The position numbers and the translations under genes are program-made. A DNA stretch of 64,000 nt from Pseudothermotoga elfii DSM 9442 = NBRC 107921 (GTDB lineage: Bacteria > Thermotogota > Thermotogae > Thermotogales > DSM-5069). The first letter of the stretch is position 1; each line of letters opens with the position of its first letter. The notes beneath the pieces were generated by a model. That model did no database searches and had not been told where the DNA came from. It worked only from the letters and a program-made list of their open reading frames with translations. The stretch lies in contig NC_022792.1 of the NCBI RefSeq assembly GCF_000504085.1, positions 248,001 to 312,000 of the forward strand, in the 5' to 3' direction. This document shows positions 5,992 to 30,246 of the stretch, in pieces.

Positions 5992-8013
5992 GTGAAAATT
6001 AGATGTTTTACTGTTTTATTAATCTTTATATTTGTAACAGTTTTTGCAACTCAGACACTGATATTTGTCAGCGGGGACTTTTATCCTCCTTTCATCTTTA
6101 AAGATGAAAAAGGAAATATAGTTGGAATTTCCGTTGATATATTACATTTGCTTGAGAAAAAAATAGATGTGAAGTTTGAAATAAAACTTTTGCCATTCTC
6201 GCAAGCTCTTGAAAAATTAGAGCGATCAGAAGCAGATATGATCAATTTTATTTTTAAAACCCCCCAGAGAGAACAACTGTTTCTTTTTTCCGATCCGATC
6301 TTCAATGTTGAAAGCAGGGTCTATTTCAGAAAAAATTTGAATATAAAGAACTTTTCAGATCTATCGCGGTATGTAGTGGGAGTTGTTGAAAAAGATGCAA
6401 ATGAGCAATTGCTCAGGCGAAAAGTTTCTTCAGTCTCTTTCAAGTATTTCAAAAACATGGAAGAGTTAATGTATGCAATTAGAGAGAACCAGATAGATGT
6501 TTTTCTGATGGAAAATCTAACGGCGCAATATTATTTAATTAAATACGATATATTCCATCTTTTCACTTCTCTTGAACCCATTTCAATCCAGCAGATCTAC
6601 TTTGCTTTTCCAAAATCAAAACCACAGATTGCAGAACTCATAAACAGCGGTCTGGCAAAGATAAGTGACAGCGATCTTGAAAATATAATATCGCCGTTTG
6701 TCAGGACAACTCGCCTACTCCCTGACTGGGCATGGTATGTAATATTCATAGCAATAGCCTGTATCATAGGAGTTTTCGGTGTTCTAATTGTTGTGAATCG
6801 ATACCTCTCTAAGCAAATTCGGAAGCGAACAGAGGAATTGCAAAAAAGAAATGAAGAACTACTTTCAGCAAATGAAGAACTCGATGCTTTGAATCAGGAG
6901 TTGAGAGCCTCATTTCAAGAATTAGAATCTCTCAACGAAGAATTGCAGCAAACCAACAAAATCTTGCAGGAGAAATCTGAACAGGTTTTAAAATTTCAAA
7001 ATGCTTTTCTCGAACTCTTGGACATTTCATCAAAGATGACTTATGAATCAATACAGGAGAAAGATTTTCTTTTCACACTGTTAAAAACATTCAAAAACTA
7101 TGCAGATAATTTGCGGCATGTTGGAGTTGCCCTCAAATCGAGCGAGTTTGGTAAAACTCTTATTTTACTGTGCAAAGACAGTGATGATTTCGTGATTGAA
7201 AGGATAAGTGAATTGATCGATTTTCAAAGTGAATCAGTTCATGAAAGTATTCTGAATGTGGCGAGGAGGATGTGTGGAAAAGATATAGTGGAAAACTGTT
7301 CTATTCATGTTATTAAGACTTCTTCAGAAGTCTACGGTGTTCTTTTTTATGATTCAGGGAAAATTGCCAGCGAAGTTAATACAGAAAAACTGTCGTCTTT
7401 GATAGCCACATTTTTATCTTTGCGCAGTTATGTCAGAGAGCAGGGAATCTTTCATAGAAGGTTGTTAACAGTTATGACCAAAGCCTTGGAGTACTATGAT
7501 TTTTACACGAAAGGTCATTCTGAAAATGTTGCAAATTATGCGGCAAAACTGGCTGAAAATCTTAGTCTTGGTAAGGAGATTGTGAGAAAGCTTTATTGGG
7601 CAGGTCTTGTACATGATGTCGGAAAAATCTTTGTCCCTCAGCAGATTCTGAATAAAGACGGCTTTCTTACCCCGGAAGAATATGAACGTGTGAAAATCCA
7701 CCCGGTGAAAAGTTATGAGTTGCTGGTGGCTGCGGGGCTTGGGGATCTTGCAAAAATAGTACGGCATCACCATGAACGCTACGACGGAGAGGGGTATCCC
7801 GATGGTCTGACAAAAGAAGAAATCCCATTAGAATCAAGAATATTGTGTGTTGTGGATAGTTTTGATGCAATGACAACAGATAGACCATACAAAAAAGCAT
7901 TGAGTGTTAAAGAAGCGAAAATCGAGATTGAAAATTGCTCTGGTTCTCAATTTGATCCGGATATAGCCAGAAAATTCATCGAGTTACTTGACAGTGGTGA
8001 GATAAAGCGCTAA
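5992..8013 (+). CDS. Periplasmic solute-binding sensor with HD-GYP domain (probable c-di-GMP phosphodiesterase)
   Basis: A predicted inner-membrane signalling protein of about 673 residues. In order: an N-terminal signal sequence; a family 3 solute-binding domain (about 20-240, beginning IFVSGDFYPPFIF); a membrane helix near 248-270; a coiled coil rich in repeated EEL/NEEL units (about 275-340); an unassigned GAF-like stretch; and an HD-GYP domain with HDVGK (541-545) and HHERYDGEGYP ending at P603. HD-GYP domains hydrolyse cyclic di-GMP, so ligand binding outside the cell may set c-di-GMP levels inside. I prefer GTG 5992, because GGAGAG is seven bases upstream and the signal peptide then starts cleanly; in-frame TTG 5968 and ATG 5977 lack an SD. 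The ligand is unknown. Confidence 0.88.
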   Translation: MKIRCFTVLLIFIFVTVFATQTLIFVSGDFYPPFIFKDEKGNIVGISVDILHLLEKKIDVKFEIKLLPFSQALEKLERSEADMINFIFKTPQREQLFLFSDPIFNVESRVYFRKNLNIKNFSDLSRYVVGVVEKDANEQLLRRKVSSVSFKYFKNMEELMYAIRENQIDVFLMENLTAQYYLIKYDIFHLFTSLEPISIQQIYFAFPKSKPQIAELINSGLAKISDSDLENIISPFVRTTRLLPDWAWYVIFIAIACIIGVFGVLIVVNRYLSKQIRKRTEELQKRNEELLSANEELDALNQELRASFQELESLNEELQQTNKILQEKSEQVLKFQNAFLELLDISSKMTYESIQEKDFLFTLLKTFKNYADNLRHVGVALKSSEFGKTLILLCKDSDDFVIERISELIDFQSESVHESILNVARRMCGKDIVENCSIHVIKTSSEVYGVLFYDSGKIASEVNTEKLSSLIATFLSLRSYVREQGIFHRRLLTVMTKALEYYDFYTKGHSENVANYAAKLAENLSLGKEIVRKLYWAGLVHDVGKIFVPQQILNKDGFLTPEEYERVKIHPVKSYELLVAAGLGDLAKIVRHHHERYDGEGYPDGLTKEEIPLESRILCVVDSFDAMTTDRPYKKALSVKEAKIEIENCSGSQFDPDIARKFIELLDSGEIKR

Positions 8014-20206: not shown

Positions 20207-22786
20207 TTGAGTTGCCTGCTGTCTGTTGCCATGATTGTAAAGGATGAAGAGAGCAATATTCGTAGAGCTCTGGACAGTGTGAAAGATATTGCCGATGAAA
20301 TAGTTGTAGTTGATACAGGCTCTGTTGATAATACACCAGACATAGTACGAAAATACACCGATAAACTGTATTTTCATCCATGGAAGGACGATTTTTCGGA
20401 GGCAAGAAATAATTCCTTGAAATATGTTACATGTGAATGGGTTTTAATTTTGGATGCAGATGAAGAGATTTCAGAGGATTTCAGAAAACAAATAAGAGAT
20501 TTTCTTAAAAATCTTCCAGAAGATGTTAACACAGTTTATCTTCCAACTTTGAGTTACCTCGATTGGGATTTCAAGCGAACTGAAATTGCTTCAACCCCGA
20601 GATTGTTCAGAAATGGCACTGTACATTACGAAAATATTGTGCACAATCAAGCAATTTATAAACCAAAAGTTGTAAATGCAAATTTTTTGATATATCACTA
20701 TGGTTACATATGGACAAGAAGACTGAGAAAGCAAAAATATGAGCGTACAGCAAATTTGATAAAAAAATATCTTCAGCAATGCAAAAATGACCAGGAAAAG
20801 CTTTATTATTTGATACAGCTTTATAAGATAGAAAAAACTGGTGGAAAACCATATCAGATAGCAGAAACAGGCTGGCAAACATTTCAACTGATGAAGAAAC
20901 TTACTTCAATACCAGCAATTGGCCTGGAATTTTTGTACGTTTTTTCGATTGATTTAGCAAACGCTGGCCTAAATGACCTTGCCGTTCAGCTTGCTCAAAC
21001 TGCGATAAAAGTTGTCCCAGATTATCCTGACCCTTACTTCTCGCTCGTTAATATCTACGCTAAGGAACAAAAATGGGAAAAGGTGATTGAATATTATGAG
21101 CGATTTAAAAAAGCTGTTGAGTACGCGTCTGAAAATATAGAGAAATTTGGCTGGACAATTATGTCTTTTAAGGATATCCCGGTGGCTGATGCCACTGCTA
21201 TGATAGCCTATGTTGCAACTGAAAATTACGAGAAATTCAATGAAATTGCCAGAGATAGATTTGCGAAAAATGAAGACATCCCAGAAAAAATGTTGCAGTT
21301 CCTTGTTGAAAAAATATCTGAGAAAGGCATCAGAGAATGTCTAAGCGGTTTGACCAATTTGGTAGAATTTATCAGGAAAAAACAACTTAAAATCAATATG
21401 CAGCCAATTTATGAAAAAATTGTTGAGTTCAAATTACCTGTAAAAATAGAAAATGTTTACGCCAAAGAAATTACTCCATTTAGCTATGCTTTGCTGAAAA
21501 GATTGAGTGAAGGACGGGATTTATTACTCGAATTTTTGAGCAGCGGAAACCTGAAAAAACTGGTTGATGATAATGGTGTCGGTGGTTTACTGTTTGTTTA
21601 TTCAATGCTTGAGAGCGATGAAGAGAAGAAAAAATTTGTTGAAAATTTTGTGGATAATGAAGATTACGTCGTTCAAGGTGTTGCAAAAGCACTTCTGGCA
21701 GATCAGTTTTTAAAAGAAGCTAAGTTTCTGGAGGCAATCAGATTATACAGAAATGTTGTACAGCTTGTTCCGGAATTGTCAAAATTTGTCAAGCCCATTG
21801 TTGAAGATCTCAAAACGAAACTTGATCCAGATATAAACGGTGTTTATGAAGAACTGTATAATTTCTACGTAAAGCAAAAAGAATTTTTGATAGATTTTCA
21901 AAAATATGCTGGCGACAATACAAGCAAATTGCATTTACTTTCAGACAAAGACGTAGCATTATATGTTTCTGCCGTTTATACTAAAAATGAAGATAAAGCA
22001 ATAAAACTTTTAAAAAGAATTAAAAATCCGTCCAGATTTCCCATGTATTATTATAGACTCGCAAAAATATATTCGAAAGTGGATTTGGAAAAATCTCTTA
22101 TGTACCACATAAAAGCGGTTGAAGAGAATGAAAAGCTTGCTGACATAAATTCAGGACGCTTCTTATATACTGGATTGTATCCAAGCATTACACTGGACTG
22201 GTTTGGCAAAAACGATGAGATATTGTGGGCTGGAAATATTTCCGAAAGATTTACTACTTTTGGTGTAATCCATCCGGTTCGAGCATGGATGAAAGCTAAA
22301 AATGGCTTGATTTATTCAAGGCCCTATCCAGTTGACGAATCAATAAAGGCATATGAGAGTTTCGAAAAAGAGTTTTACAAGGAGCTACCTTTACGAGTTG
22401 GGGCATTTGAATTGCATGAGGTTTTATTAAACCTCGACTGGAAAAGTGTTAGAAGAGCTGAAGACATGAAAAATTTCGAGTATATTTTTATGGATCTTGG
22501 CATAGAATTGAGTGACAATTCTGAAAATGCAGTAATACTGGAAGGTGTTGAAAAAACGGTTGAATTGAAAAAATTACTTCGGGGGGCAAAAAGGGCTGTG
22601 GTGTTTTATCATGTGCCAAATCTATGTGAGGGGGACGATACAATCTGGTACTATCCAGCGTTCAGAATACTCAGGACAACAGCTCAAATGAAGAAAGAGC
22701 TTTCTTCTATAGGCTATAAAATTCTGACAAATATGATTTTCCCAAATGGTTTAAGATGCGTGGTAATTGAGCAATCGAAAAAGTAG
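20207..22786 (+). CDS. GT2 glycosyltransferase with long helical-repeat region
   Basis: An 859-residue protein. The first 180 or so residues are a GT2 glycosyltransferase (LSVAMIVKDEESNIRRAL, VVVDTGSVDNT, and the metal-binding Asp motif in LILDADEEIS). The remainder is mostly helical, TPR-like in parts (LVNIYAKEQKWEKVIEYYERF), with a distinct C-terminal domain of about 150 residues. The start is TTG 20207, six bases after GGAGGTG; in-frame TTG 20153 and ATG 20180 precede that SD. GT2-TPR proteins beside flagellin genes are often flagellin glycosyltransferases; the acceptor here is inferred from position only. Confidence 0.82.
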   Translation: MSCLLSVAMIVKDEESNIRRALDSVKDIADEIVVVDTGSVDNTPDIVRKYTDKLYFHPWKDDFSEARNNSLKYVTCEWVLILDADEEISEDFRKQIRDFLKNLPEDVNTVYLPTLSYLDWDFKRTEIASTPRLFRNGTVHYENIVHNQAIYKPKVVNANFLIYHYGYIWTRRLRKQKYERTANLIKKYLQQCKNDQEKLYYLIQLYKIEKTGGKPYQIAETGWQTFQLMKKLTSIPAIGLEFLYVFSIDLANAGLNDLAVQLAQTAIKVVPDYPDPYFSLVNIYAKEQKWEKVIEYYERFKKAVEYASENIEKFGWTIMSFKDIPVADATAMIAYVATENYEKFNEIARDRFAKNEDIPEKMLQFLVEKISEKGIRECLSGLTNLVEFIRKKQLKINMQPIYEKIVEFKLPVKIENVYAKEITPFSYALLKRLSEGRDLLLEFLSSGNLKKLVDDNGVGGLLFVYSMLESDEEKKKFVENFVDNEDYVVQGVAKALLADQFLKEAKFLEAIRLYRNVVQLVPELSKFVKPIVEDLKTKLDPDINGVYEELYNFYVKQKEFLIDFQKYAGDNTSKLHLLSDKDVALYVSAVYTKNEDKAIKLLKRIKNPSRFPMYYYRLAKIYSKVDLEKSLMYHIKAVEENEKLADINSGRFLYTGLYPSITLDWFGKNDEILWAGNISERFTTFGVIHPVRAWMKAKNGLIYSRPYPVDESIKAYESFEKEFYKELPLRVGAFELHEVLLNLDWKSVRRAEDMKNFEYIFMDLGIELSDNSENAVILEGVEKTVELKKLLRGAKRAVVFYHVPNLCEGDDTIWYYPAFRILRTTAQMKKELSSIGYKILTNMIFPNGLRCVVIEQSKK

Positions 22787-22803
22787 AAAAGAGGTTGTTA
22801 ATT

Positions 22804-23499
22804 ATGGCAGTTTATCAGAGACCTCCTAAACTTTCTGAAAGTATAGCTCAACAGTTGAAAGATGATATCATAAAGGGTATTTATCTTCCTGGAGAAAGAC
22901 TTAAAATCATAGAAATAGCAAAACGTTTTGGCGTCAGTCAAACTTCTGTGAGAGAAGCATTAAAGATTTTGGAAAAATCGGATCTTGTGAGCGAGTCGCC
23001 ACACAAAGGCTATGTTGTTACAAATTTGACCTTGGATGAGCTTGTAGATATATGGACCATAAAAGAAAAACTTTGGTCTCTTGCGTTTGCCTGGTTTACT
23101 GAGAGAGCGGATAAAGAATTGATTAAAGATGCGGAAAAATGGGTTTCGGAATTCAGAAATGCCTATATAGAAAATGATTTAGACAGGGCTTTTGAGGCTA
23201 ATTTTGCATTTACCGATGTTATTCTGGCTGGTTGCGGTTCAAGAAAACTTGTCACACTTTTGCGTTCGATAGAAGATCAGGTAAAAAGATATAGATATTT
23301 AAGTTTAGAGTTTGATGATAATTTAAAAGTATCCTCGCAATATTTTGGTGAAATAATAAAGGCTATCTGGATTAGAGATTCAAAAAAGGTTTCTACGATG
23401 ATTCAAGAATATATTCGGTTTAGCCAAAAAGTCTTGAAAGAAAATTATAAATATATGCAAGAGAAATCGAAAGAAAAAATGAGAAAAGAGCAGCTATAG
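22804..23499 (+). CDS. GntR family transcriptional regulator (FCD/FadR-type)
   Basis: A 231-residue one-component regulator. The N-terminal winged helix-turn-helix (about 8-75) has the GntR signature IIKGIYLPGERLKIIEIAKR followed by FGVSQTSVREALKIL. The C-terminal all-helical FCD domain (about 85-215) binds a small acid effector, usually through a metal. The start is ATG 22804 with GAGGT upstream. Eight bases short of 120 nt downstream begins a hydrolase-transporter-synthase operon, preceded by a perfect palindrome, its probable target. The effector is likely the substrate or product of that operon. Confidence 0.9.
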   Translation: MAVYQRPPKLSESIAQQLKDDIIKGIYLPGERLKIIEIAKRFGVSQTSVREALKILEKSDLVSESPHKGYVVTNLTLDELVDIWTIKEKLWSLAFAWFTERADKELIKDAEKWVSEFRNAYIENDLDRAFEANFAFTDVILAGCGSRKLVTLLRSIEDQVKRYRYLSLEFDDNLKVSSQYFGEIIKAIWIRDSKKVSTMIQEYIRFSQKVLKENYKYMQEKSKEKMRKEQL

Positions 23500-23580
23500 A
23501 GGAGTTTTTCCCAATTTTTCTCTCTTAAGAGTATTTTTCTGATCATTTTTTGCTTAGGTTTTTTGTGTTTTTTTATGTAT

Positions 23581-23595
23581 TATCGATAATCGATA
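23581..23595. promoter_or_regulatory. Palindromic operator candidate for the GntR regulator
   Basis: A perfect inverted repeat, TATCGAT-A-ATCGATA, 16 nt before the cyclase gene start. It overlaps a possible -10 element (TATTAT, 23578-23583), so a bound dimer would block transcription. A second, 10-nt palindrome (CTCTTAAGAG, 23522-23531) lies about 50 nt upstream. I did not see TATCGAT repeated before the regulator gene itself. Confidence 0.55.
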
Positions 23596-23611
23596 AAGAG
23601 GGGGTGGTAAA

Positions 23612-24385
23612 ATGCCGTATCAATTAATTGATTTAAGTGAGACAATATTTCCTAACTCTGAATCTGAACCCTGGCCAGCAAAGATAACATATCTTGATCA
23701 CCGCACAGGTGCCCAAGAAATGAGAGAAAAGTTTGGTGTTATTCCAAAAGATCTTGTTTATTCTCAAGGATTGGGGTGGTCGTATGAGTTTATCGAGGCG
23801 ATGACTCACACTGGTACTCACTTGGATGCACCGTGGCATTTTCATCCAATTTCTGAAGGAAAAATAGCAAAAACAGTAGATGAGATTCCTCTTGAATGGT
23901 GTTTTTCAAATGGAGTAGTTCTCGATATGCGCCATAAAAATCCGGGTGAGTATATTACAATTGAAGATTTAAATCTATCGCTTGAAAAGATCAACTATGA
24001 AATCAAACCCCTTGATATTGTACTAATAATGACAGGTGCTGATAAAAGAATGGGGACAAAGGAGTATTTCCTTCAACCAGGTATGAGCAGAGAGGCGACG
24101 CTATGGTTAATAGGTAAAGGTGTTAAGGTGATGGGAATTGATGCTTATACATGGGACAGACCATTCTCTGAAATGTCCAAAGATTATTCTCAAAAAAAAG
24201 ATGGCTCCTTTATATGGCCGGCCCATTTTGCTGGTATTGAAAAAGAGTACTGTCACATTGAGAAACTGGCAAATTTAGATAAAATACCAAGACCATACGG
24301 TTTTAAAGTATCTGTTTTTCCAATAAAAATACATAAAGCAAGTGCAGGTTGGGTACGTGCTGTTGCGATAATCGAGAATATTTAA
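23612..24385 (+). CDS. Cyclase family hydrolase (kynurenine formamidase-like)
   Basis: A metal-dependent hydrolase of the PF04199 cyclase family, which opens amide or ester bonds, for example in N-formylkynurenine, isatin or cyclic imides. The 257-residue protein carries the hallmark H66-TGTHLDAPWH-76 metal-binding motif and a late acidic/His segment (WPAHFAGIEKEYCHIEKL) that supplies further ligands. It is the first gene behind the palindromic operator, 18 nt before the symporter. The transporter probably imports the substrate or a related acid. The actual reaction is unknown; tryptophan degradation is not supported by neighbours. Confidence 0.85.
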   Translation: MPYQLIDLSETIFPNSESEPWPAKITYLDHRTGAQEMREKFGVIPKDLVYSQGLGWSYEFIEAMTHTGTHLDAPWHFHPISEGKIAKTVDEIPLEWCFSNGVVLDMRHKNPGEYITIEDLNLSLEKINYEIKPLDIVLIMTGADKRMGTKEYFLQPGMSREATLWLIGKGVKVMGIDAYTWDRPFSEMSKDYSQKKDGSFIWPAHFAGIEKEYCHIEKLANLDKIPRPYGFKVSVFPIKIHKASAGWVRAVAIIENI

Positions 24386-24403: not shown

Positions 24404-26362
24404 ATGGGTACGGTGGGCATATTTACGACTTTTTTCGCTATTTTTGGTTTTATAATGGTTTTTGTTGGATGGGTAACGAGAAAGTGGATTGGAAGGAGCA
24501 CAGATTATCTTGTTGCAGGAAGACAAATAAATTTGCTCGTAAATACTTTAGGGGTTGCCGCGATAGGTTATGCTGGAACAACTTTAACTCTGGCTCCTGC
24601 CTTCACTATAATGGGTGGGCTCACTAAAAGTATTTTCATGCTTGGGGTTGCTTATTCTTTAACAGGTATTATTTCCTATGCTCTTTTGATAGCACCAGTT
24701 GCAAGAAGAACAGGTGCACACACTTTACCAGAATGGTTAGAGATAAGATATGACAGAAGAGTTAGGTTTATAATAACTCTTGTTACTGTTGTAGCAATGC
24801 TCGGGATTACTGCCAACAATGTTCTTTCTATGGCCACTATAATCACAGGATTTACTGGTTGGTCCATACCAGTAACTATTCTAATAACTTTCCTTATTTT
24901 CTTGTTTTTCACAGTTCTTGGTGGCATGTGGGCTGTTACTTTGACAGATTTTATTCAAGGAGTCCTCTGTACATTTGCAATACCGGTTCTGGTAATATTT
25001 CTTCTTGTGAGATATGGAGGATTATCCTTCCTGACACATAATTGGCCTGGCGGAAATGTATGGACTTCAGGAATAGCAGGAAAAAGTTTTCCCTGGTTTT
25101 CGACTTTCTATCCAAGCGTTTTTGTTGCGTTTTTCTTATATGGAATGGCGTTGGTGTGGGGATCTAATAGTTACTGGATCAGAGTTAGCTCTGTTCGAAG
25201 CGAAAGAGTAGCGAAGTTTTCTTATCTGCTGGCGGCTTTAATACTTTTTTCAGCAAATGGTTTTATGTATCCATTACTTGGAGCTTACGTTGGGGCAGCT
25301 CATCCAGAAATGTTTGCACCACAGGGATCTGCTGCACCAGCGGCCGCATTTGGAATATTCTTACGGGATACTCCATCTGTGCTGGCTGCTTATTTTCTTT
25401 TAACAACATTAGCTGCCTCTGTTTCAACTTCAACAACTTATTACATGGCTGGAAGTTCTGTTATAGTAAGAGACATTTATCAGAGATTTGTAAAACCAAA
25501 TGCGAAACCTGAGGATCTTGTAAAGCCTTCTATGATTGTTAACACATTATTTGGCATTGCTGCTTTGTTACTTTGTTTCTTTCCGGGCGGCCCTGTGTAC
25601 TTATTTGCTTTTGCAACAGCCTGGCTCGCTCCAACAGCAGTTATAGTAATTTTGGGTCTTTATAGTAAGAAATTTTCTACAACAGGAGCGTTTGTTGGAG
25701 GATTGACTGGGTTGATATTCATGTCTGTATGGACATTACTTGATTTAACAAAAATTTATCCATTAACCAGCAAATTTGGTCACATGGTTATACCTGGGCT
25801 CATTGTTTCGGTAGTAGCAGCTCTTATTGCCAATTTATTTGGAAAATCAAAATACGACTTCACGGTCAAAAAAAGAACACAACTCAGTGATAAAGAAATA
25901 GAAGTGCTCGATATAATCCGCAGAGGATACAACACGATGGCAGAAATAACAGATTTACTGGACATAGATTCTTCAAAGAGCAGTGAATTAGTTCTTTCGT
26001 TGGAAAAAGCAGGAGCAGTCAAAAGAGCTTCCAATAGAGGTTCTGGCTTTTACACATTTATTTTAACTGATTTTGCCCAAAATCTGCCAACAAGAATTAA
26101 ATCAGAAGAGATTTATGGTGATCTGGACATAGTGGGATTAAATATTCTCAAACATGTAAAAAGTGGTTCGCAAGTGTTAGCGGACGAACTTTCAAAAACA
26201 ACAGGGTTGAATTCAATGGCCTTATCAACGGTTATTAATTCGCTTATAAGGCGTGGTTACTTGAGTGAAGGTGGTATATGGAGAAGAATTATTAAAATAA
26301 CACAAAAAGGCTTGGAAGCAGTTCAAAGATTTGAAAAAGGAGATGGTGAAAGTGCCGTTTGA
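24404..26362 (+). CDS. Sodium:solute symporter fused to two C-terminal winged-helix-like domains
   Basis: A 652-residue fusion. Residues 1 to about 485 form a standard SSS-family symporter with roughly 13 membrane helices (GRSTDYLVAGRQINLLV near 28-44, WAVTLTDFIQGVLC near 175-190). The tail is soluble. Residues 494-560 (LSDKEIEVLDIIRRGYNT, then MAEITDLLDIDSSKSSELVL and SLEKAGAVKR) read as a winged helix-turn-helix. Residues 575-645 (GLNILKHVKSGSQVLADELS, then LNSMALSTVINSLIRRGYLS) read as a second one. The reading frame is continuous, so the fusion is real. It may couple transport to transcription or form a regulatory dimer at the membrane. It overlaps the next gene's start. The substrate is probably an organic acid. 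Confidence 0.82.
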   Translation: MGTVGIFTTFFAIFGFIMVFVGWVTRKWIGRSTDYLVAGRQINLLVNTLGVAAIGYAGTTLTLAPAFTIMGGLTKSIFMLGVAYSLTGIISYALLIAPVARRTGAHTLPEWLEIRYDRRVRFIITLVTVVAMLGITANNVLSMATIITGFTGWSIPVTILITFLIFLFFTVLGGMWAVTLTDFIQGVLCTFAIPVLVIFLLVRYGGLSFLTHNWPGGNVWTSGIAGKSFPWFSTFYPSVFVAFFLYGMALVWGSNSYWIRVSSVRSERVAKFSYLLAALILFSANGFMYPLLGAYVGAAHPEMFAPQGSAAPAAAFGIFLRDTPSVLAAYFLLTTLAASVSTSTTYYMAGSSVIVRDIYQRFVKPNAKPEDLVKPSMIVNTLFGIAALLLCFFPGGPVYLFAFATAWLAPTAVIVILGLYSKKFSTTGAFVGGLTGLIFMSVWTLLDLTKIYPLTSKFGHMVIPGLIVSVVAALIANLFGKSKYDFTVKKRTQLSDKEIEVLDIIRRGYNTMAEITDLLDIDSSKSSELVLSLEKAGAVKRASNRGSGFYTFILTDFAQNLPTRIKSEEIYGDLDIVGLNILKHVKSGSQVLADELSKTTGLNSMALSTVINSLIRRGYLSEGGIWRRIIKITQKGLEAVQRFEKGDGESAV

Positions 26363-27599
26363 AAAATTAGAAGGATGCGAGCCGTTTATTTTAAACGACA
26401 GCTGGGTGTCACCACTGAACTTTATCGAGGAAGTTCGCTCAAAAATGAATCTGCCCGAGCAGGTCATAATTCATGATGTCACGCTGAGAGATGGAGAGCA
26501 AATGGCGGGTGTTGTGTTCACTGAAGATGAAAAGGTGTTCATAGCCCAAGAACTTGATAAGATTGGTGTTCCAATGATAGAAGTTGGGTTTCCAGCTGTA
26601 TCTGGTGAAGATCAAAGAGTTTTTAAAAGACTGTCAAAGATGAACCTCAAAGCAAAAAAAATAGCCCTTGCAAGAATCATGGATGAAGATGTAAAGCTTG
26701 CTGCTGAATGTGGTGCAGATGGTTTGTTCTACGAAACAAGCATTAATCCATATTTTGTGAAATATGTCTTGGGACTTGATTCAAAAGAATTCATTGACAG
26801 AATAATCAAAGGCGCAAAACTGGCCAAGGAATTGGGATTATTCGTCGAATTCTGTGGATGGGATACTTTTAGAATCAACAATCTTGAATGGATCAAAACA
26901 GTTTACACAGAACTTTTAAAAAATGTAGAAGTTGATCAAATAGGTATATCCGACACATTTGGCCAGGCACATCCATTCACAGTGAATTTCCTGGTGAGAA
27001 AGATGAAAGAATGGTTTCCCTCTATTCCGTTATCCATCCATGTACACAACGATTATGGGCTGGCTACAGCTACAGCGCTCATGGCTATTGCATCTGGCGC
27101 AGAAGCTGTTGAGACATCTTTTAATTGTCTTGGTGAACGTACGGGAAATGCCTCGACGGAGGAAGTAATAGCAGGTATTGAAATGATACTTGGAATAAAA
27201 ACTAATGTGGATTGTCAGGAACTTTACAGAGTCTCAAAAATGATACAGGAAGTATCCAAAATGCACGTTGCTCCAAATAAACCGATAGTTGGTGATCGGA
27301 TTTTTGACAGCGAATCAGGTATTGTGATTGATGCAAACGAAAAAATTAATAGAGCAACAGAAATAAAATATGCTATGTATCCTTACAATCCTGAGAACTT
27401 TGGTCGCTGGCTTAAGTACGTTGGAGGAAAAAAGAGCGGTCGCGCTTTTGTCAAGCAATATTTGGATAAAAGAGGTTTGAAAGCTAATGAAGCTCAGGTT
27501 GACGAGATACTTGTTCGAATAAAAAAAATAGGGACTGTTTTAAAAAGTGCTCTTTCAGACGAGGATATAGACAGAATCGTAGAACTTGTACTTGGTTGA
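26352..27599 (+). CDS. Isopropylmalate/homocitrate synthase-like enzyme (DRE-TIM family)
   Basis: A TIM-barrel enzyme of the DRE-TIM metallolyase superfamily, which condenses acetyl-CoA with a 2-oxoacid. The 415-residue product has HDVTLRDGEQ (about 41-50), IGISDTFGQ and HVHNDYGLATA (metal-binding His-x-His), and NCLGERTGNAS. The C-terminal KKSGRAFVKQYL stretch resembles the post-barrel segment of homocitrate and isopropylmalate synthases, favouring synthase over HMG-CoA lyase. Re-type citrate synthase and citramalate synthase are alternatives. It overlaps the symporter's end. I chose GTG 26352 (nine bases after AAGGAG); GTG 26346 and ATG 26343 are alternatives. A terminator follows. Confidence 0.8.
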   Translation: MPFEKLEGCEPFILNDSWVSPLNFIEEVRSKMNLPEQVIIHDVTLRDGEQMAGVVFTEDEKVFIAQELDKIGVPMIEVGFPAVSGEDQRVFKRLSKMNLKAKKIALARIMDEDVKLAAECGADGLFYETSINPYFVKYVLGLDSKEFIDRIIKGAKLAKELGLFVEFCGWDTFRINNLEWIKTVYTELLKNVEVDQIGISDTFGQAHPFTVNFLVRKMKEWFPSIPLSIHVHNDYGLATATALMAIASGAEAVETSFNCLGERTGNASTEEVIAGIEMILGIKTNVDCQELYRVSKMIQEVSKMHVAPNKPIVGDRIFDSESGIVIDANEKINRATEIKYAMYPYNPENFGRWLKYVGGKKSGRAFVKQYLDKRGLKANEAQVDEILVRIKKIGTVLKSALSDEDIDRIVELVLG

Positions 27600-29147: not shown

Positions 29148-29443
29148 CACATTTTTTCATCGAGTCTTGTACCTTTTGAATCTGAGATATATCTGTAAAG
29201 CTTGATTGCAGATTCAGCGTTTTTTGTTTGCAATGCATTTTGTTGAATTTGGGCCATATGGGATTTTATTTTATCAATTCTAACTTTATCTGCTTCTACA
29301 AGTATTTGAGCTATTTTTTTGTCAATTGATGATAAATTTTTTATAAGTTTTTCTCTCTGAAAGAGAAGATTCAATATTTTTTCATATTCGCGTTGTTCAA
29401 TAAGGCTATCTATTTGTTTTTCTATCTCAAAAATCTCTTTCAC
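29147..29443 (-). CDS. Small helical protein of unknown function
   Basis: A 98-residue, highly charged, almost wholly helical protein (IEKQIDSLIEQREYEKILNL, REKLIKNLSSIDKKIAQIL). The REKLI segment and the overall size resemble FliT-like flagellar chaperones, but no diagnostic motif confirms that. The start is GTG 29443 overlapping the AcpS-HPPK stop by GTGA, making it the last gene of a five-gene minus-strand array. No enzyme function can be assigned. Confidence 0.65.
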   Translation of the reverse strand: MKEIFEIEKQIDSLIEQREYEKILNLLFQREKLIKNLSSIDKKIAQILVEADKVRIDKIKSHMAQIQQNALQTKNAESAIKLYRYISDSKGTRLDEKM

Positions 29444-30246
29444 CAGTTCTTTGTCACTAATCTCCAGTCTCTCCTTTCCCCCACGAAATTTTTCAATTCT
29501 CCGTAGATTGGATGATCTATTGCCTTAATTTCCAGCAATGGAACTATCACAAATTGTCTGTTGATCAAATCGTAATGAGGAACTGATAAATCCGGCAATT
29601 TGTATACTGTATTTCCATACATAAGGATATCCAAATCGATAATTCTTGGGCCCCATTTTTTCTCACGCTTTCTACCCATTTCTTGCTCTATTTTCAGAAG
29701 CATGTTCAACAATTCTTCAACAGAAAAATCCGTGTCTACTTCTAAAACACAATTATAGAAATCTGGTTGATCTTTCACTCCATAAGGATCTGTCTCATAA
29801 ATGGAGGATTTTTTTATTATTTTTATTTTGCGCGATTCCATCAAATTGCAGGCTTCTTGAATATTTTTCAACCTATCTTCGAGATTTGAACCCACTCCAA
29901 TATAAACGTTCCCGGGGCGCTTTTCCAGTATTATCTGTGCTGCAGCTACGAAATCATGTGTGATGCTTATATGAGCAAAATTGAAATAAAAATCTCTGTG
30001 AAAAAGTAAAAGAGGTTTCCCGGCATGGTTGTGGATAATCTCTATGTCTGTGAAAGAGTAATTTTTCACACCTGTTCCGATTGCTTTGAAGAAAGCTTCT
30101 TTCGCAGCGAATCTTGCAGCTAGATATGTTTTCTTATCCTTAATTGATTCGAATTCCAGCTGCTCCGATGGTCCGAGGATTCTTTTGCTTAAAGACAATT
30201 CTACTCTATCGATTTTGACTACATCAATCCCAATGCCAACGATCAT
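29440..30246 (-). CDS. Fusion of holo-ACP synthase (AcpS) and HPPK (FolK)
   Basis: One 268-residue frame with two enzymes. Residues 1 to about 110 are AcpS: GIGIDVVKIDRV (metal-binding Asp8) and FAAKEAFFKAIGTG, which transfers phosphopantetheine from CoA to acyl carrier protein. From about 113 begins 6-hydroxymethyl-7,8-dihydropterin pyrophosphokinase: YIGVGSNLEDRLKNIQEA, SSIYETDPYGVKDQPDFYNC and GPRIIDLDILMYG (Asp pair binding Mg-ATP), an early folate step. Both motif sets look intact, with a short linker. It overlaps oadA by ATGA upstream and the 98-residue gene by GTGA downstream. No other folate or fatty-acid genes lie nearby. Confidence 0.9.
   Translation of the reverse strand: MIVGIGIDVVKIDRVELSLSKRILGPSEQLEFESIKDKKTYLAARFAAKEAFFKAIGTGVKNYSFTDIEIIHNHAGKPLLLFHRDFYFNFAHISITHDFVAAAQIILEKRPGNVYIGVGSNLEDRLKNIQEACNLMESRKIKIIKKSSIYETDPYGVKDQPDFYNCVLEVDTDFSVEELLNMLLKIEQEMGRKREKKWGPRIIDLDILMYGNTVYKLPDLSVPHYDLINRQFVIVPLLEIKAIDHPIYGELKNFVGERRDWRLVTKNW

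Follow-up and report, generated by a model that had tools for sequence, protein, structure and literature searches.

Why should a sodium:solute symporter continue, in the same reading frame, into a soluble tail that resembles DNA-binding proteins, and what could such a tail do at the membrane? The question is raised by a gene in a stretch of 64,000 nucleotides from Pseudothermotoga elfii (the window), for which an earlier note, made from the letters alone, had described an unbroken frame from an SSS transporter into a soluble tail with two winged helix-turn-helix (wHTH) units. The gene and the parts of its product are arranged as follows, with coordinates counted along the window:

24404..26362, plus strand: SSS-family symporter with C-terminal tandem winged-helix module, 652 aa (open reading frame, Pfam, homologues)
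24404..25852, plus strand: SSS/SLC5 transporter domain, residues 1-483, about 13 TM helices (Pfam SSF, AlphaFold and Foldseek, alignment to NIS)
25844..25879, plus strand: positively charged linker KSKYDFTVKKRT, residues 481-492, after the last TM helix
25877..26068, plus strand: wHTH1, MarR-like, residues 492-555, recognition helix 523-535 (HTH_27, MarR_2, AlphaFold, charge)
26126..26338, plus strand: wHTH2, residues 575-645, recognition helix 604-616 (HTH_24, wHTH-PRTase_assc, HTH_34, AlphaFold, charge)

A symporter and its winged-helix tail

The frame is open from the ATG to the stop over all 652 codons, and together with Pfam and AlphaFold this confirms the transition from a transporter to a soluble tail. 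The combination of a symporter and two winged helices in one gene is a real, conserved, and unusual architecture. The Pfam SSF model (PF00474) matches residues 35-436 over its full length (model positions 1-406/406, E 7e-30, 105 bits at a cut-off of 22.8). About 13 membrane helices were counted by hand in the full-length AlphaFold model, the last of which spans residues 462-478, and Foldseek searches with this model retrieved SiaT, CHT1, NIS, SGLT, and vSGLT with TM values by target of 0.6-0.78, indicating a LeuT-type SSS fold. Of the five full-length models just one was good (pTM 0.82 and mean pLDDT 81, the remaining four ranging in mean pLDDT from 68 to 53), and nothing was therefore concluded on the packing of the domains. 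Residues S341-T342 are invariant in 13 homologues, lie within an invariant AASxST stretch, and align with 'GTLSTAST' of NIS; we take them to be the counterpart of the Na2-site Ser/Thr pair of NIS and PutP. From the conserved fold and residues we infer that the protein is competent for transport, and it would be an importer coupled to sodium with an organic acid-like substrate. The positive charge of the linker, read by the positive-inside tendency and together with the SSS topology, suggests that the tail is located on the cytoplasmic side.

Within the tail, HTH_27 matches residues 494-551 with E 1.7e-8 in the context of the full protein and with E 3e-10 when the tail is searched alone (35-40 bits, above the curated cut-off of 22.2), and MarR_2 matches the tail with E 1e-6 (29-34 bits, above the curated cut-off of 27). 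Residues 575-645 are matched more weakly by HTH_24, wHTH-PRTase_assc, and HTH_34. An AlphaFold2 prediction of residues 484-652 with 15 homologous tails resulted in two complete winged helices (mean pLDDT 85.3, pTM 0.81), so that the proposed tandem is confirmed by both Pfam and the model. Numbered within residues 484-652, the first unit has the order H13-23, H29-36, H40-52, E56-59, E68-71, and the second unit the order H93-103, H110-117, H121-133, E137-140, E146-149, H151-161. The recognition-type helices had been placed correctly in the earlier note, and its repeated layout is real as well: The profiles of wHTH1 and wHTH2 align to each other in hhalign with a probability of 96% (E 3e-9), which establishes the tandem repeat.

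In profile comparisons with solved structures, the DNA-binding MarR regulators rank closest to the tail. Foldseek matches to the tail include MarR proteins, the RNA-binding SelB, and the protein-binding tandem wHTHs of ScpB and ESCRT-II, none of them with E < 0.001. The models contain none of the dimerisation helices that MarR proteins have outside the wHTH; the units are joined by just a short connector, and the only further helix is the terminal one (residues 634-644). The tail is therefore not a full MarR protein.

The two units differ in their net charge. Over 19 tails the mean net charge is -2.4 for wHTH1 and +3.0 for wHTH2, compared to +6, +6, and +2 for the wHTHs of three Thermotogota MarR controls, which are few and were picked by the same profile and are thus indicative only. 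The wing of the MarR controls is basic (KSKKDKRVYVV) whereas its counterpart in wHTH1 is neutral and reads G-x-G-F-Y-T-F. The most conserved residues of wHTH1 (N510, D517, D522, S523, S526, G546, Y550, and F552) are situated at the helix-turn-helix and the wing and are neutral or acidic. The wing of wHTH2, where the pattern G-[IL]-W-R-R is found, has W-[RK]-R in most of the 19 tails. The earlier note had named as an argument against DNA binding that both recognition helices should have lost their basic residues across homologues; such a loss is thus largely seen for wHTH1 but not for wHTH2. As judged from these residues, a division of labour is possible in which wHTH1 would make a protein contact and wHTH2 would be the candidate DNA binder.

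Conservation, distribution, and split versions

The fused frame is shared by relatives at 83-84, 79, 61, 50, and 41-43% identity. The full protein is encoded by three congeners (83-84%), another member of the family (79%), and one genome of the same class (50%), and beyond the phylum by a Candidatus Atribacteria assembly (61%), Virgibacillus litoralis (43%), and Piscibacillus. It is also present in two more Bacilli and three Brevibacillales genomes (frames of 671 codons), and a search with a profile of the tail added five further Bacillota genomes. Every close relative found has the tail (19 tails from Thermotogota, Atribacteria, Bacillota, and one haloarchaeon), and it is retained by every relative found at an identity of at least 40%. 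The search for the same architecture in related genomes that had been proposed earlier was thus successful in Thermotogota, Atribacteria, and Bacillota, and in a haloarchaeon with the two parts split. Matches were present in 3/299, 4/39, 1/50, and 7/103 genomes of four genome sets, and this patchy distribution is suggestive of horizontal transfer or frequent loss. The remaining SSS paralogues in the same genomes do not exceed about 30% identity, and most of their frames measure 440-570 codons. One further SSS-wHTH protein (L042:6259-8286), whose SSS part is only about 30% identical, is encoded beside molybdenum hydroxylase genes in another type of operon. The architecture therefore extends beyond a single orthologous group.

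Between congeners the tail has a dN of 0.24-0.27 while dS is saturated, and is therefore under purifying selection; it evolves faster than the transporter part. An assembly join or a frameshift artefact is ruled out by the identical fusion in independent genomes, and a pseudogene or chance fusion by the conservation of the fusion across phyla together with these substitution rates. A viral scan gave no match for this gene. Plasmid origin was rejected, the single plasmid match being a haloarchaeal megaplasmid.

The covalent link is kept in 17 of the 19 sampled relatives, across phyla. The 17 include the Piscibacillus copy (L015:6001-7965), a symporter-wHTH gene whose frame is interrupted at two places, probably through errors in sequencing or through decay. 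In Brevibacillus massiliensis (L014) the symporter ends after 501 codons and the tandem wHTH is encoded by a separate gene of 166 codons (L014:7484-7981), which overlaps the TGA of the symporter and has GGAGGTGA five bases ahead of its ATG at 7484. This putative ribosome-binding site argues for a genuine separate start rather than a sequencing slip. The free-standing protein scores above the cut-offs of both MarR_2 and HTH_27. In Natronococcus sp. AD-5 (L024, on the megaplasmid) an SSS gene of 554 codons is followed by an overlapping gene (L024:6589-7158), the product of which can be aligned with the larger part of the tail (E 1e-5) and has no Pfam match by itself. The split genes indicate that the wHTH module can be a stand-alone soluble protein of the MarR_2 type, and a free-standing tail gene in two relatives fits a regulator. 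Because the split genes overlap, they seem to be still translationally coupled to the symporter, as expected of partners in one function.

Operon neighbourhood and operator search

The operon around the symporter gene contains these further features:

22795..23499, plus strand: GntR/FCD regulator of the operon (Pfam GntR E 7e-16, FCD E 8e-14)
23576..23593, plus strand: conserved palindrome-containing site TGTATTATCGATAATCGA, immediately 5' of the first operon gene after gntR
23612..24385, plus strand: PF04199 cyclase/hydrolase gene, in synteny with the symporter gene (Pfam E 5e-38)
26331..27599, plus strand: HMGL-like (isopropylmalate/homocitrate synthase-like) enzyme (Pfam HMGL-like E 1e-58; same neighbour in L012 and L046)

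The frame of the HMGL-like enzyme overlaps the end of the symporter gene, and both are therefore probably co-translated. The PF04199 cyclase is adjacent or nearly adjacent to the symporter in every cluster read except L042; in the haloarchaeon the split symporter and wHTH genes are accompanied by a cyclase and an FAA hydrolase. HMGL-like (LeuA-like) enzymes are present in the Thermotogota and Atribacteria clusters. CoA-transferase subunits, a thiolase, and a ChsH2-type OB protein are encoded in clusters L012 (Atribacteria) and L046 (Thermotogota), and BKACE (PF05853) and/or FAA hydrolase in the Bacillota clusters. Judged by these enzyme families, the clusters would be catabolic for an organic acid-type compound. 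Further downstream in the window, a frame at 29440-30246 resembles, by eye only, a fusion of a holo-ACP synthase (N-terminal half) with the folate-pathway HPPK (C-terminal half).

That the operon has a GntR regulator of its own, as noted earlier, is confirmed by the GntR and FCD domains. The regulators differ between the clusters, with GntR in Thermotogaceae, sigma-54 activators in Brevibacillus, L039, L040, L043, and L012, and TrmB in L013 and L045, while the tail is constant across all these. For L015, L024, and L044, and for L041 and L046, which are truncated, we recognised no ordinary regulator. Candidate promoters of the sigma-54 (-24/-12) type are located between the activator gene and the enzyme genes at L012:1365 in the Atribacteria cluster and, on the minus strand, at L040:9744 in a cluster from Bacillota.

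Two regions had been proposed as DNA targets of the tail. The region 22740-22810 comprises the end of an upstream ORF and the start of gntR. The other, 23500-23611, contains TGTATTATCGATAATCGA with the palindrome ATTATCGATAAT. This site is identical and single-copy (two mismatches allowed) in 4/4 congeneric genomes although the surrounding intergenic region has diverged. A fifth genome (L011) with the gene order gntR-LeuA-cyclase-SSS has the site with one mismatch, still directly behind gntR. Searches of L012 and L046, in which gntR was not seen either, did not detect the site. Among the congeners, L011, L012, and L046, the only conserved operator-like site thus goes with gntR, and none that tracks the tail was found. 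By this co-occurrence the site is probably the operator of the GntR/FCD regulator, which is the simplest reading, though the tail might have a part in its use as well.

Possible functions of the tail

Output domains fused to SSS transporters have precedents. CbrA is a histidine transporter and a signalling protein at once (PMC7096432, PMC13022988), and in CbrA and CrbS an SSS domain with a fused output is known to serve as the sensor (PMC7096432, PMC7918813, PMC13022988). How transport is coupled to signalling in SSS sensors is, according to the literature, still unresolved (PMC7918813, PMC13022988). In its available part, a review of prokaryotic SSS proteins covers kinase fusions and predicted GAF/PP2C fusions and mentions no wHTH fusion (PMC7918813). 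The symporter described here shares with the SSS/SLC5-STAC kinases (CbrA, CrbS/MxtR, RpuS) that the output is on the C-terminal, cytoplasmic side of the SSS domain and tied to the uptake or use of a carbon source. However, neither Pfam nor NCBIfam models of STAC, HisKA, and HATPase domains match the protein, even at E 5 and E 1, and it therefore does not belong to this kinase family. Its output consists instead of two directly attached winged helices, which would make a phosphorelay and a response regulator unnecessary, and it occurs in Thermotogota, Atribacteria, Bacillota, and, split, in a haloarchaeon. By analogy, the symporter-wHTH protein may work like CbrA without the phosphorelay.

The membrane-bound one-component regulators CadC and ToxR also combine a wHTH and a membrane sensor in one polypeptide. 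However, their membrane part is a single helix and not a full multi-spanning transporter, and their wHTH is N-terminal, not C-terminal. MarR/HTH_27/MarR_2 regulators resemble wHTH1 in sequence and fold and wHTH2 in general, but here the units are in tandem, lack dimerisation helices, and are attached to a transporter, and wHTH1 is acidic without a basic wing. ScpB, the C-terminal part of SelB, and ESCRT-II have tandem winged helices of similar layout, but these are soluble and bind protein or RNA, and the matches are weak with a TM of about 0.3 over the pair. We found no description of an SSS-wHTH protein in the open-access literature, although domain databases may well list the architecture.

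The recurrent symporter-wHTH arrangement probably links nutrient uptake to a regulatory output. Our best reading, to which we assign a probability of about 0.45, is that of a one-component 'transceptor', a sodium-coupled importer with a built-in regulatory tail analogous to CbrA, of which we infer the signalling and the DNA binding of wHTH2. Binding of substrate or sodium and the transport cycle would shift the conformation of the SSS domain; wHTH1, joined directly to the last membrane helix, would read this state or hold the tail to the transporter; and wHTH2, basic and with a W-R-R wing, would be released or presented for DNA binding. This contact could then adjust the expression of the catabolic operon alongside its ordinary regulator. 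Direct transcriptional action by the tail is plausible at a little under even odds. It is a more tentative idea that a secondary transporter is itself a transcription factor, the SSS cycle directly controlling DNA binding by the tandem wHTH with neither kinase nor response regulator, in several bacterial phyla and in a two-gene archaeal version. If true, whole transporters would join the known sensor types of one-component regulators. With a module of just 160 residues fused directly to a transporter, and with split versions existing in nature, the coupling of transport to signalling could be tested in a far simpler setting: Transport, the state of the tail, and DNA binding are all accessible to measurement in a single polypeptide or in a pair.

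The transceptor is favoured by wHTH matches above the curated cut-offs, the profile closest to MarR, the predicted fold, the occurrence of the module also with the distant SSS domain of L042, the net charge of +3 and the W-R/K-R wing of wHTH2, the retention of the tail at 40% identity and more, and the coupled split genes. Against it stand the acidic wHTH1 with G-x-G-F-Y-T-F in place of a basic MarR wing, the single operator-like site that goes with gntR, and the Foldseek matches to RNA- and protein-binding tandem wHTHs. In addition, most of the clusters read have another dedicated regulator, so that regulation does not have to depend on the tail alone. A regulatory or assembly role away from DNA is nearly as likely as direct transcriptional action. 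The tail could well be a cytoplasmic protein-interaction or gating module, whose wHTHs would have given up DNA binding and instead dimerise the symporter, gate it on a cytoplasmic signal, or dock a partner, for example the cyclase. This would agree with the charge and wing of wHTH1, with the Foldseek matches to ScpB and ESCRT-II, and with the regulators already present in most clusters. Across phyla in which operons and regulators differ, the aromatic wing GFYTF is conserved and D522/S523 are invariant, as might be expected if the tail had a partner that stays the same and not an operator that changes. However, wHTH2 has remained basic with its conserved W-R-R wing, sequence profiles put the DNA-binding MarR proteins first, and the free-standing copies resemble small soluble MarR_2 proteins.

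Compared to the transceptor and the interaction module, it is rather improbable that the protein is a membrane-tethered repressor or antirepressor with MarR-like DNA binding, in which the transporter does not sense transport and only anchors the tail or keeps the amounts of tail and symporter in step. The tail is MarR-like in sequence, and the split genes beside the symporter imply that the covalent link is not obligatory, but the link has been retained by 17/19 relatives across phyla (including L015 with its frame breaks), and wHTH1 looks like a poor DNA binder. Hardly credible is an accidental fusion or read-through without function, caused by a degenerate tail or an assembly join. The frame breaks in L015 and the separate genes in L014 and L024 might be taken to point there, but conservation refutes it, since the same fusion occurs in several phyla and the tail has a dN of 0.24-0.27 at saturated dS.
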